47,116 bases of DNA. It comes from a virus. The translations under genes were made by a program, and so were the position numbers. Position 1 is the stretch's first letter, and every line of letters starts with the position of its first letter. Of this stretch, positions 2,438 to 46,265 are shown in pieces. Where the stretch lies: the IMG/VR virus record IMGVR_UViG_3300021963_000208, positions 1 through 47,116 of that record; one strand, given 5' to 3'. Below the pieces are notes generated by a model that saw only the letters and a program-made list of their open reading frames with translations, ran no database searches and was not told the origin of the DNA.

Positions 2438-5400
2438 TTATAATTCTCCTATTTTAACTCTAACGACACCATTATAAACAACACTTATTTGATTGTTTTT
2501 AATTTCCAGTCTATTATTGCCAGATGAACTCTTAATAACTACATTACCATTCTCATCTACACTGAAATTTTCATTTGCAGAAGATATTGTTCCGGTAACA
2601 GACAGTTGTCCTGTATTAACCGACAATGCCGACAAAGAGCCAACTTTCAATGAAGACCAGTATGGTGTAGTCCAAGTTGTTTGATTTGTTGCAGGATTGT
2701 AAATACCATCAGATTGCCACAATCTATTATTGGCAGGAATAACAGGCGCAGTTGTACTCCAAGCTACAGACACACCCCAACTAGTTTCAGAGTTTGCCGC
2801 AGTAGGAACAGCAGTTCCACTTTTAACGATATTTGCAGAAGAAGTGATTTCTGTTGCAACAGGTATCACAGCATAGCAAACAGTATAAGATGCAGCATCT
2901 TGTCCACCATAAGAAACAGCAGTAATACTTGATAGAGACCAGTTTACAGTTGTAGTTGCGTTTGAGGCAGAATCTGAAATATTAACTTTAGCCGACCACA
3001 GGGTATAACCCGCTACTGCTGCTCCAGGAGATTTAGACCAGCCAGCATTTGTATTTGCAGTACTTACACCATCAAAGTCATTGTCAGCCCAAGTCCATGT
3101 ATTAGTTCCTGTTGGAGCTGTCGGAATTGTTGCAGCCCATTTAAACAAAGTAGGTGTTGCTCCATGTACTCCAGCTTGACCATTCTGGGATATTGCAGAT
3201 ATTTGTGCATTAGTCCAGTCAACAGCTGTTGTTTGTGCGGCATTTGTCGCTTCAATCCTAACTGTTGCAGTCCATAACTTAATTCCAGGTGTACCTGGAT
3301 TAGCAGGAATTGATATTGTCCAATAGTCTAAATTTTGAGATGTATTTGGAACTTTGACATATCCACTGTTTGATAAGCTAGACCATGTCCATGTTGAATT
3401 ACCTGTTGGTGTAGGCGGCGCAGCAGTAGCCCATTGATATAGTTGGACCGTTGCTGTTTTCTTACCTGTAACTCCTTGTTTACGTTTAGTAAAGTTTTGA
3501 CGCTTAACCAAAGTAAAGGCCTTACCTGTAGTGCTTTTACCAGTCAGTGTAAAATCAATATATGCAGAATCTGCTGTGATAGCATCTACAACACCGTATC
3601 TAACATCAGTACCTAGGTCGGTTAAAGATGTAGATGCTGTAATGTTAGTTGCTGAGGCTACAGATTTCCAAGTTCCATTAGAAGTTCCAACACCATTATA
3701 CGAAAGCTTTGTATTACCTTCATATACTGAGATATCTACACCCGTACCAGCATAAGAACTTACCGTTCCACTTTCGTCCGTAGCAAAAATGTACTCAGTA
3801 TTAGTAAGATAGCCTTCAATTATGGTCTCACCTCTTCTTGCCTTTACAAATGTTTGGTCAACTGTAAAAGTAAAAGAAATACCTTCTGAAGTCTTACCCG
3901 TGACAGTGTACGTAATTACGGCTAACTCAGTTGTAAGATTACTATGATTTCCATAGGTTACAAAATCACCGCCATCAGTTACAGATGTAGAAACTGTAAT
4001 TCCAGTTGCTGTAGTATCTACTTTCCAAGTTCCATTAGAAGTTCCTTGTCCATCATATACTAATCGTGAAGCACCTTCATATACATATAACGATGTACCA
4101 GAATTGTTATAACCATCTTCAAGTACAGTACCATCTGAAGAGCAAGGAATAGCATGAGTTGCGTTGCTGAGAACTCCATTAACAGCGCCAGAGCCTTTGA
4201 GACCTTTAAATACAACAGGGATAAACTCTGTATCTAAAATTGCAGTTGATTGGTTTGTTTCATATAGTCTAACTGTAATAGACGTAATATCTGCGTCATT
4301 AGCAATTTCGGTTGTGTGACTTGCAGCTCTTGCAGATTCGTTTGTCATCTTATCTGTTTGATAAGTAACATAGCCAAAATCGGCAACAGTATCACCAATA
4401 ACACGTCTACCCTTTACAGTTACGTTTGAATGAACACCATCTAAGCTTGCACTTGCAGCATCTTTAAAGACTACTGGAGCACTTGTGAAGATATAAATAT
4501 ATCTTGCATCAACGCCGTAATTAATTTTAGAAAACGTCTGCGTAGAGGAAATTGAAAACGCTACGCCTTCAGATGTTTTGCCAGTTGCTGTGTAGGTGAT
4601 TGAGGCCGTACCTTGCGACAAACCGCTGTGATCACCAAATCTTACAAAGCTACCTTCATCTGTTTGAGTTGTGCTCTTTACGATGTTTGTAGTGTTTACA
4701 GTGACCTTCCAGGTGCCGTTGACAGAACCATCATAATTAGGATCATACGACAGAGCTGTTCCGCCTTCATATACAAAAACATCTGTTCCGGAGCCTTCAT
4801 ATGACTGTACCGCACCTGACTCATTACATGGAATTGCATGAGTTGGATTAGTAAGCACTATATTTAAAGCGCTTGCACCAGTAGCTCCTCTAAAAATAAC
4901 AGGAACTGTTACTGAGTCTAACAGCTGAGTCTTGTTTTCAGTAGAATAGAGCTTGAAGGTTATAGACGTTATATCAGAATTGTTTGCAATATCTGTTGTA
5001 ATAGTATTAGCAGTAGCTGCAGCGGCTTCTTGCACACCATTGTAAGTTGCAGTCAAATAACCAAATGTTGAAGCAGTATTTCCAATTGTCACTTGTCCAG
5101 TTGCTGTGATATTAGTATGAACACCATCAATTGCAGCTGTAGGTGAGTTCTTAAAAATAACAGGTGCAGACAACAATATTGAATAGATCTTTGCATCATA
5201 ACCAGATCTAGCCTTAGCAACCGTAAAGCGCTTTGTTATGCTTTGACCTGTTCTAGTGGCTGTGATGTCTAGATATCCTTCATCTTGAGTCAATGCAACT
5301 ACTTTGATTGGAAATGCTGAGATAACGCCATTTGTAGTCCCAGTGCCATCCCTATCAGTATTATCATCATTGTCTCTATACTTAGTTCCTGTTGATACAG

Positions 5401-43687: not shown

Positions 43688-43969
43688 TTAAAGACCAGCT
43701 TGATAACGCTTTTCAGCAAGCAAATAACCCTCAAGTTCCCAGATATTATCAAAGGCTTTCTCAAAAGCGTATTTTTCACCGAGTGCTTGATTGTATTCTT
43801 CTTTAACAACACAAGCTGAACTACCATTAACAGTGAATCCATTCTTAAGTGTAATCTGACAAATCGTTGTACGACCGTCAGGCAACAATGTATAACTTGT
43901 TGACTTGATTTTATCTTGAATATCAGAAGCCTGAACTTTAACAGGCAATACTTCTTGATTATCTTTCAT
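43688..43969 (-). CDS. Gp49-like phage protein (93 aa)
   Basis: The start is at ATG 43969 (MKDNQEVLPVKVQASDI), supported by GAAAGAAAAT. The product matches the Gp49/Sf6 gene 66 family (PF13876 type): YTLLPDGRTTICQITLKNGFTVNGSSACV, then YAFEKAFDNIWELEGYLLAE. These are short proteins of unknown role common in phages. A Longer form from 44050 would run through tRNA sequence and is unlikely. Confidence 0.75.
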   Translation of the reverse strand: MKDNQEVLPVKVQASDIQDKIKSTSYTLLPDGRTTICQITLKNGFTVNGSSACVVKEEYNQALGEKYAFEKAFDNIWELEGYLLAEKRYQAGL

Positions 43970-43982
43970 ATTTTCTTTCAAA

Positions 43983-44016
43983 TGGTGGGTCCAGTAAGAT
44001 TTGAACTTACGACCAA
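43983..44016 (-). pseudogene. tRNA 3' half (T arm and acceptor, CCA)
   Basis: The minus strand reads TTGGTC GTAAGTTCAAATCTTAC TGGACCC A CCA. This includes a correct T arm, one acceptor strand, a discriminator base and CCA, but no 5' half next to it. The matching 5' half (GGGCCTA...) lies 550 bases away at 44564-44589. The acceptor strands pair with one mismatch. It begins right after the CCA of the intact CAU tRNA. Confidence 0.75.
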
Positions 44017-44092
44017 TGGTATGCCAGCTCGGATTCGAACCGAGGCTCAATATCTTATGAGGATACTGCTTTTACCGCTAAGCTACTGGCAT
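44017..44092 (-). tRNA. tRNA-Met(CAU) or lysidine-type tRNA-Ile
   Basis: Minus strand ATGCCAG-TA-GCTTAGCGGTAAAAGC-A-GTATC CTCATAA GATAT, then TGAGC, CTCGG TTCGAAT CCGAG and CTGGCAT A CCA. All stems pair perfectly. The anticodon loop CTCATAA gives CAU. It may read AUG, or AUA if C34 is modified. The 5' end is overlapped by the stop end of the HNH gene (15 bases). Confidence 0.85.
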
Positions 44093-44533
44093 GCTGTTTA
44101 TAAAAATTTTCCTAGCTTCTATAGCCTCGGTTTCTGTATTAAATCGACCAATATAATGCTTTTTACTTTTGTAATTGTAATATGCACCATATTTATTTCC
44201 AACCTTCCAAACACCAACATTGTAATGGTCTGAACGCGTTGAATTACGATTATTATCAGAACCTGAAGATATTCTAAGATTTTCAATACGATTATCAGAC
44301 CTGTCTCTATTGATATGGTCTATTGGAGTTTCGGATGAAAGATCTCCATTAAACCAAATCCAAATTAAGCGATGGGCTTGATAGAATTTCATATTAAGTC
44401 TGATATGTATATAACCTCTTGAATTTATAGTACCTGCTACAGTACCTTTACGCACAGGGCCTCTTGATTCTTTCCAAATCAAAAATCCATTGTTATATTC
44501 AAAAACTGATTTTAAATATTTTTGCGTTATCAT
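44078..44533 (-). CDS. HNH homing endonuclease with AP2-like domain (151 aa)
   Basis: The start is ATG 44533 behind AAGGAG. Residues 40-90 contain the HNH fold with YQAHRLIWIWFNG and IDHINRDRSDNRIENLR (H54, H73, N81). The C-terminal part 104-145 (VGVWKVGNKYGAYYNYKSKKHYIGRF...TETEAIEARK) is the AP2-like DNA-binding repeat found in phage HNH proteins. The stop codon (TAG) is inside the CAU tRNA. It sits between the two halves of a broken tRNA, fitting a homing insertion. Confidence 0.85.
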   Translation of the reverse strand: MITQKYLKSVFEYNNGFLIWKESRGPVRKGTVAGTINSRGYIHIRLNMKFYQAHRLIWIWFNGDLSSETPIDHINRDRSDNRIENLRISSGSDNNRNSTRSDHYNVGVWKVGNKYGAYYNYKSKKHYIGRFNTETEAIEARKIFINSMPVA

Positions 44534-44563
44534 TTTAACTCCTTAAGTTAATAGATATAATAA

Positions 44564-44589
44564 GCTCTAACCAACTGAGCTATAGGCCC
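44564..44589 (-). pseudogene. tRNA 5' half (acceptor and D arm)
   Basis: GGGCCTA-TA-GCTCAGTTGGTTAGAGC is a normal 5' tRNA acceptor strand and D arm, but what follows on the minus strand (TTATTATATC...) does not continue with a paired anticodon arm. The 3' half is at 43983-44016 on the far side of the HNH gene and the CAU tRNA. The form GGGCC...AGAGC resembles elongator Met or Ile type tRNAs. Confidence 0.7.
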
Positions 44590-44593
44590 TGAA

Positions 44594-44680
44594 TGGTGCG
44601 CCTGACCAGACTCGAACTGGTACGCCGATTAAGGCGAGAGATTTTAAGTCTCTTGTGTCTACCTATTTCACCACAGGCGC
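44594..44680 (-). tRNA. tRNA-Leu(UAA)
   Basis: Minus strand GCGCCTG...CAGGCGC with A and encoded CCA. Anticodon arm AGAGA CTTAAAA TCTCT gives UAA. A long variable arm CGCC TTAAT GGCG type (class II) supports Leu. T arm ACCAG TTCGAGT CTGGT pairs well. Its 5' end overlaps the last 18 bases of the 48-aa gene. Confidence 0.95.
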
Positions 44681-45887: not shown

Positions 45888-46265
45888 TCAAAAGTTTTTC
45901 ATTGCATAACGCACTTGCCTAATAAACTCGTTTTGATTAGGATGCATATAAGTTGTCTTAAAGATTTCAGAACCAGCTTTTTCAATTGTAAATGTACAGT
46001 TAGTTACACCAGTGCTAAGTTGATCTTCAATTTGAATACAAGCAACTTCTGCATCTGCTGCGAGTTCTTTTATTCCGTGATTAAATTCAATAAAATATTT
46101 CATTTTAGTAGGGCGATGGATTTTAAGAACACCATCTTTTGGATTAACTACAAACACTCCTCCAGAGTCTAATACACCTTTAATAAAGCCACTATTGTAA
46201 AACGGTCTAGAAACTTCCAGCACAAGATGTGCTTGACCATTAATATTAATATAAGAAGCAGACAT
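45888..46265 (-). CDS. Hypothetical protein (125 aa)
   Basis: ATG 46265 follows GAAAGGTGACTT. The product MSASYININGQAHLVLEVSR... is beta-rich, with GVFVVNPKDGVLKIHRPTKMKYFIEF and CTFTIEKAGSEIFKTTYMHPNQ. It looks like a small globular protein. No family was recognised; the next gene starts 9 bases later. Confidence 0.6.
   Translation of the reverse strand: MSASYININGQAHLVLEVSRPFYNSGFIKGVLDSGGVFVVNPKDGVLKIHRPTKMKYFIEFNHGIKELAADAEVACIQIEDQLSTGVTNCTFTIEKAGSEIFKTTYMHPNQNEFIRQVRYAMKNF

Follow-up and report, generated by a model that had tools for sequence, protein, structure and literature searches.

The locus described here is probably a homing endonuclease that has invaded a phage tRNA gene at the anticodon arm and carries with it a diverged tRNA of the same type; it can be regarded as a natural 'home-and-rescue' element. 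The sequence analysed (the window) is the whole 47,116 bases of a single, metagenome-derived IMG/VR virus record. A preliminary description of this DNA had proposed a mobile nuclease cassette in a CAU tRNA gene, together with a replacement CAU tRNA. This is the best-supported reading of the locus, and the arrangement recurs elsewhere.

The whole cassette is on the minus strand and forms a 607-base unit (43983-44589). The two tRNA halves, the HNH gene and the intact CAU tRNA are all found where the preliminary description had placed them (Table 1); the single acceptor mismatch between the halves and the position of the HNH stop codon inside the replacement tRNA were also described correctly. 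The 5' half (26 bases, minus strand 44589-44564) reads GGGCCTATAGCTCAGTTGGTTAGAGC, its last bases being GAGC at about position 25. The 3' half (minus strand 44016-43983) reads TTGGTCGTAAGTTCAAATCTTACTGGACCCACCA and consists of the end of the anticodon stem, the variable loop, the T arm, the acceptor and CCA. Acceptor pairing between the halves is 6/7, with C4:A69 as the one mismatch and T6:G67 as a wobble; acceptor pairing in the spare tRNA is 7/7. The ORF and the spare tRNA overlap by 15 bases, and the stop codon occupies tRNA nucleotides 13-15. The insert contains the HNH ORF and the tRNA and nothing else. The spare is the only CAT tRNA that ARAGORN detects in the window record. One point absent from the preliminary description is that the broken gene lacks positions about 26-43, the anticodon arm; because of this loss, the halves are unable to form a tRNA together.

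Table 1. Features of the cassette locus and its immediate context in the window.
Feature	Coordinates	Strand	Remarks
tRNA-Leu(TAA), intact (context)	44594..44680	-	ARAGORN; just upstream in the array
5' half of broken CAU tRNA gene	44564..44589	-	covers tRNA positions 1 to about 25; 4 bases from the end of tRNA-Leu(TAA)
Nuclease leader	44534..44563	-	30 bases; AGGAG ribosome site within a weak hairpin (TTAACT..AGTTAA), z -1.65; common to L002
HNH_3-AP2 endonuclease ORF (predicted)	44078..44533	-	151 aa; stop codon inside spare tRNA
Complete spare tRNA, anticodon CAT	44017..44092	-	ARAGORN; Rfam 67.6 bits; C4:G69 and C5:G68 (Ile2-like)
3' half of broken CAU tRNA gene	43983..44016	-	abuts the CCA of the spare tRNA
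Phage_gp49_66 ORF (context)	43688..43969	-	Pfam; downstream

When the halves are joined with the anticodon arm written as N, they match phiKZ-type CAT tRNAs end to end at 70-71%, a figure that counts the 17 N as mismatches and corresponds to about 55 matches among the 60 real bases. At least 119 viral stretches contain the 26-base 5' half without any change. Among the 119 carriers listed, 108 are intact tRNAs according to ARAGORN (107 CAT and one GAT); the remaining 11 comprise nine that look like truncated att-type tRNA ends, one that is cut by a contig end and one nuclease insertion (L179). A 23-mer of the 3' half occurs in three viral contigs: in intact CAT tRNAs in L162 and L164, which share 33/33 bases with the 3' half of the window, and in an Arg(TCT) tRNA. 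Judged from the 5'-half carriers, the 3' 23-mer and the match of the joined halves, the broken gene is a CAU tRNA gene. The halves had been described as resembling one Met- or Ile-type tRNA; by these counts, an origin from two different tRNAs, named earlier as a refuting result, is unlikely.

The identity pairs of tRNA-Ile2 for E. coli TilS are C4:G69 and C5:G68, according to the available part of PMC12514573. Both are present in the window spare together with the CAT anticodon. The resident relic has C4:A69 and C5:G68; C4 is paired with G69 in most intact carriers of the 5' half. By these acceptor pairs, the CAU tRNA of the window is most likely tRNA-Ile2, which reads AUA; it would then be expected to have lysidine at C34 and to be charged with Ile. 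AUA accounts for 173 of 900 isoleucine codons in 32 window ORFs chosen by a simple rule.

The 151-residue window protein contains a Pfam HNH_3 domain at residues 51-96 (E 2.9e-15) and matches the HNH endonuclease family PHROG 99 (E 5.6e-48). A structure model made from 23 relatives has a pLDDT of 85.9. The first fold match of this model is I-HmuI (E 2e-3, probability 1.00); the matches that follow include plant AP2 domains, at weak E values (0.2 or worse, probability 0.96-1.00). No fold match of the model reaches E 0.001 or better, and a PDB sequence search with the protein gives no match at E up to 1. The HNH_3 domain and the order of fold matches bear out the earlier 'HNH/AP2' label, and the protein is predicted to be an HNH-AP2 endonuclease with an I-HmuI-like fold. 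H73, N81 and N85, presumably the catalytic residues of the HNH enzyme, are among the invariant columns of the 23 relatives. The nuclease would be expected to cleave the insert-free allele at or close to the insertion site. I-HmuI and other HNH-AP2 enzymes resemble the window protein in fold and HNH_3 domain, but I-HmuI is intron-encoded. In the window, Rfam detects nothing but tRNAs, and a scan of 12 related loci gives no group I match with an E of 0.1 or less; a group I intron-encoded endonuclease, which would have a self-splicing intron around the ORF, thus has no support from Rfam. Of 105 loci with HNH relatives, 80 were kept; L002 is the only one of these with any tRNA, which counts against the home-and-rescue reading.

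L002 is another phage contig and comes from a different data set. Its order is the same, 5' half, HNH gene, complete CAT tRNA and 3' half, and the nuclease stop codon again falls inside the tRNA with the same overlap. The window and L002 nucleases are 69% identical in protein and 71% in DNA; dS is 3.1 (synonymous sites are saturated) against a dN of 0.22, and the nuclease is therefore under purifying selection. The spare tRNAs agree at 70/76 bases. The relic halves agree at 21/25 bases (5') and 26/34 bases (3'), and their stems are kept through two-sided changes. The nearest intact neighbours of the L002 halves are CAT tRNAs; the L002 3' 23-mer is found elsewhere in three CAT and two Asn tRNAs. 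The resident tRNA of L002 looks different from that of the window. Had there been a single old insertion, its neutral relics would be expected to have decayed over this time; two resident tRNAs that were each invaded separately and more recently are the better fit. A pattern search with the leader gives seven matches; one is the L002 contig and six precede another gene with the same ribosome-site words.

Recurrence of the architecture is also found when nucleases are ignored. The viral_contigs were searched for a complete tRNA T-loop closely followed by a second, orphan T-loop, which gives 44 loci. At eight of these, a 5' half with a canonical D arm lies upstream, and its acceptor forms 7/7 pairs with that of the relic; with permuted acceptors (1000 runs) the mean is 0.17 and the maximum 2. 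Six of the eight have both a nuclease ORF and a complete tRNA: L166 (the L002 contig), L311, L329 and L335 (CAU), and L318 and L332 (Asn), although the pattern requires GGTC before the orphan T-loop and so favours some tRNA types, CAU included, which biases the counts by type. This gives five cassettes beyond L002, in the order 5' half, nuclease, complete tRNA, 3' relic. L319 and L345 have a 7/7 partner but no nuclease ORF and are not counted as cassettes; L317, L321 and L306 have nuclease ORFs near tRNA relics, and as no paired 5' half is found in them, they are not counted either. L179, which came to light through its 5' half, adds another CAU case. Its spare resembles a tRNA and has a CAT loop, but neither ARAGORN nor Rfam calls it, and it may be decayed. 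The match of the halves to phiKZ-type CAT tRNAs, the repeated architecture in L002 and the permutation result indicate that the split-tRNA arrangement is not due to chance.

Wherever the type of the resident can be told, it is that of the spare. In L318 and L332, whose spares are Asn tRNAs, the surviving part of the resident anticodon loop is likewise compatible with Asn; the nearest intact tRNAs of the L332 halves are Asn, and the L318 halves alone point to no clear type. The L335 resident is Ile- or Met-like, its nearest intact tRNAs being GAT and CAT. The L311 halves alone do not point to CAT; the 5' part of this locus extends to ACTC.

The nucleases differ between cassettes. Pfam assigns those of L332 and L335 to HNH_3. 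The L329 nuclease belongs to another HNH group (PHROG 4234, E 7.6e-27), and that of L318 to PDDEXK_5 (E 6e-33). The L179 and L311 nucleases belong to a T7-endonuclease-I-like PD-(D/E)XK group and are BLAST-related to those of PhaxI, Kuja, Apostate and others; Pfam Phage_endo_I matches this group below cut-off only, in the members tested. It is somewhat likely that these loci form a class of natural home-and-rescue drives in phage tRNA genes, in which four or more types of nuclease (HNH_3, whether AP2 is present or not, a second HNH group, PDDEXK_5 and T7-endonuclease-I-like PD-(D/E)XK) would have independently come to destroy a resident tRNA gene at its anticodon arm and to supply, joined to the nuclease 3' end, a diverged tRNA of matching type.

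Two other readings of the halves can be weighed against these loci. Firstly, the halves could be a working split or intron-bearing tRNA whose insert is removed from the RNA before the halves are joined. The acceptor and T-arm pairing of the halves, which is kept in both the window and L002, would suit this, as would the complete halves of the Acinetobacter phage Apostate; however, the window, L002 and L329 all lack the anticodon arm, and Rfam finds no group I intron, which makes a working split tRNA very improbable. Secondly, the locus could be a scar, left by an integrase-type element or by tandem tRNAs that recombined, in which the HNH gene is there by accident. tRNA genes are indeed common integration sites, and among the 119 listed carriers of the 5' half, nine resemble att-type tRNA ends. 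Against this, the insert consists only of the HNH ORF and the tRNA, and the same order recurs with unrelated nucleases; a scar is likewise very improbable. The home-and-rescue reading remains preferred for the window.

The nuclease stop codon is at tRNA nucleotides 8-10 or 13-15 in nine of the 12 cassettes with a downstream tRNA that were examined by coordinates. It is at 13-15 in the window, L002, L311 and L329, and at 8-10 in L332, PhaxI, Kuja, CBA120 and Marshall. In L179 the stop is within the tRNA-like stretch; in L318 and L335, nuclease and tRNA abut. With the stop inside the tRNA, nuclease and tRNA should be hard to part by recombination. The PD-(D/E)XK leaders, six of the eight leaders folded, form strong hairpins (z -3.7 to -5.3); the two HNH leaders are weak (z -1.65 in the window and -2.07 in L002). 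The spares of L329, PhaxI and Kuja lack one of the two Ile2 pairs.

Empty and filled sites can be compared in named phages. Kuttervirus ST-W77, GG32 and Sa157lw have an intact CAT tRNA (GGCCCCG...). At the same place, PhaxI and BRM 13312 have about 27 first bases of the ST-W77-type tRNA, followed by a PD-(D/E)XK nuclease and by another CAT tRNA, which is complete and differs from the resident; of the 3' half, only the last bases are left. ST-W77 and PhaxI match in two pieces around the insert, with 99.0% identity. The relic reads GGCCCCG in PhaxI, as in ST-W77, and GGTCCTG in cp19, as in the intact SP1, while the spares are similar; since each relic follows its own resident, the relic is local and the cassette is shared. 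Only the 5' relic is kept in PhaxI, cp19 and Kuja.

Among Acinetobacter phages, Stupor has an intact CAT tRNA. In Apostate the same tRNA is cut exactly after CAT; both sides are kept and there is no nearby spare. CkP1 and AsFcp_4, whose nucleases are of the PD-(D/E)XK group, likewise seem to have a split CAT tRNA and no spare close by. Because the nucleases of these three phages split a CAU tRNA with no spare nearby, rescue is not obligatory; these cases may represent a stage before rescue was gained, or rescue may be optional. The preliminary description had suggested looking for an uninterrupted tRNA in related phages, and in sister systems such alleles exist: ST-W77 is intact where PhaxI is filled, and Stupor is intact where Apostate is split. 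Presence/absence polymorphism is seen for the PD-(D/E)XK systems and for the CBA120 HNH gene.

At the ST-W77 locus, CBA120 has an HNH gene whose stop codon is nucleotides 8-10 of a CAT tRNA, with no 5' relic. Its tRNA is P01-like up to about nucleotide 41 and then identical to that of ST-W77, leaving a C28:A42 mismatch; this looks like a mosaic of the kind left at the end of a conversion tract. CBA120-type HNH genes are found in 30 records, a count that includes duplicates of a single phage, and in 23 of them the matched stretch carries a tRNA-Met annotation. The mosaic is in keeping with a homing cassette; such cases would also suit plain co-conversion, in which a free-standing homing nuclease sits beside its own uncuttable tRNA allele and both are copied together; the halves would then be sloppy repair, and the spare a passenger that is not selected for rescue. 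Both the CBA120 type, with its mosaic tRNA and no 5' relic, and the existence of spare-less nucleases fit this. On the other hand, complete spares are flanked by the 5' half of the resident, with a 3' relic as well in eight cases, and the tRNA type is the same every time it can be told. In addition, the window and L002 spares agree at 70/76 bases, compared with 71% for the nuclease DNA. Plain co-conversion is therefore the less plausible account and is considered unlikely, though not negligible; a cassette in which the spare serves as rescue is preferred.

No empty-site relative of the window phage was found in the phage collection, viral_contigs or genome_contigs. When the phage collection was searched for distant and for near DNA similarity, the matches listed were all to tRNAs; local BLAST of the window flanks gave tRNA matches and the gp49_66 gene among those listed. 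The gp49_66 relatives in viral_contigs have no matching tRNA array, ORF 45891-46265 has no relative in viral_contigs, and the HNH alignment finds no relative in genome_contigs. The flanks of L335 and L311 gave only tRNA-sized matches among those listed for the phage collection. A single metagenome-derived record with no close relatives might be suspected of being an assembly artefact of one contig. This is extremely improbable, because the same order is present in L002, from another data set, and isolated phages have the sister arrangement.

The proposed mechanism is as follows. In a mixed infection, the nuclease would meet the genome of a recipient phage and cut its tRNA gene; for the HNH-AP2 enzyme, the site of recognition and cleavage is probably the region of the anticodon arm in CAU tRNA genes. 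Repair from the co-infecting donor would then copy the cassette into the break and destroy the resident tRNA, in the window with loss of the anticodon arm. The diverged CAU tRNA fused to the nuclease 3' end presumably no longer fits the cut site, and would take the place of the resident and keep a CAU tRNA in the genome. This could benefit the phage. Phage tRNAs are often dispensable, however, so the spare may give little benefit.

Several known systems share parts of this design. Integrative elements enter tRNA genes by means of integrases and restore the resident tRNA; in the window, the cassette supplies a divergent second tRNA and the resident stays broken. In HomeR, a recoded copy of the target restores function; engineered drives add such a copy to avoid the cost of homing. 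The window system shares with the engineered HomeR home-and-rescue drives, as far as these are set out in the accessible portion of PMC7968924, a homing nuclease and a copy of the target that restores function; HomeR is synthetic and uses Cas9 in insects, whereas the window system is natural and concerns a phage tRNA.

The mORFs of fungal mitochondrial genes are a closer parallel. The available text of PMC3630166 places them in Allomyces (atp6) and Glomus (atp6, atp9, cox2, nad3), where the endonuclease interrupts a gene and comes with a foreign version of that gene's end, while the native end can persist as a relic. The window, L002 and the five pattern loci likewise combine an endonuclease, a foreign copy of the displaced target and a native relic. 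In that text, mORFs concern mitochondrial protein genes and LAGLIDADG or GIY-YIG enzymes, and the 3' part alone is replaced (PMC3630166); the phage cassettes are in tRNA genes, have HNH and PD-(D/E)XK enzymes and supply a whole tRNA. The phage cassettes thus appear to work like mORFs; as the enzyme families differ, they are not assigned to them.

SegB of T4 and T6 is located in a tRNA array and cuts within tRNA genes, according to the parts available of PMC13096335 and PMC2988022. It resembles the cassettes as a free-standing phage homing nuclease in a tRNA array, and the hairpins over the ribosome site that are known for segB and mobE (available part of PMC2988022) are comparable to the leader hairpins of the PD-(D/E)XK cassettes. 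SegB differs in being a GIY-YIG enzyme located between tRNA genes (same part of PMC2988022), and the available parts of PMC13096335 and PMC2988022 describe no tRNA split by SegB with a nested replacement. The Marshall genome paper lists homing endonucleases, but not a tRNA-nested cassette (PMC3853055). No description of a nuclease nested in a phage tRNA gene with a complete replacement tRNA was found in searches of one open-access literature library.

If this reading is right, phages have reached a home-and-rescue design repeatedly, in tRNA genes and with unrelated nucleases. Such drives would help explain the fast turnover of phage CAU tRNAs and tRNA arrays. The paired natural alleles (ST-W77/PhaxI, Stupor/Apostate and the CBA120 type) make it testable whether rescue helps a homing nuclease to spread, and they also bear on why phages keep and exchange tRNA genes, CAU in particular. 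For annotation, a 'tRNA-Met next to an HNH gene' can be an element of this kind with flanking relic halves.

A number of other loci show related features. Kimel (L360, 718-792) and Stupor (L359, 718-794) have two quite different CAT tRNAs at the same place and with the same flanks, perhaps because of conversion to an uncuttable allele. In IME341 (L350, 1120-1888), a nuclease is flanked on one side by what may be the 5' relic of an Arg(TCT) tRNA and on the other by a complete tRNA of that type, possibly a change of target tRNA. This nuclease is 68% identical to the one in the CAT tRNA of CkP1; the relic is short, and IME341 is therefore not counted as a cassette. IME13 and Bhz51 have a related nuclease in tRNA arrays, but split halves are not clear and these phages are not counted as cassettes.

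In L321 (about 2121-2800), an HNH ORF extends up to or into the start of a tRNA-Leu(CAA) and is followed by an orphan 3' half; this is likely a Leu-type cassette, with no 5' relic found. Possibly decayed cassettes without a nuclease ORF are seen in L345 (oriented 5138-5338), where a tRNA-like stretch is nested in another tRNA gene, and in L319 (2331-2629), where the nested tRNA is a complete tRNA-Ile(TAT).

CAT tRNA 5' parts that end abruptly at or just past the anticodon arm are found in L188, L209, L229, L236, L254, L255, L259, L261 and L280; some of these contigs also carry a complete copy, which fits prophage attachment sites at a CAT tRNA. In L308, L334, L346, L341, L310, L339, L323, L330 and L338, close to the positions matched by the T-loop pattern, a 5' half is located only about 40-80 bases before the inner T-loop. 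These small inserts in or near the anticodon loop contain a second T-arm-like hairpin and no ORF, and are perhaps small tRNA introns or misread long tRNAs. Just after tRNA-Ile(GAT), L312 has a tRNA with a paired acceptor and no anticodon arm (TTAGCTCAGTTGGTTGGTCCCC), which could be an insertion scar.
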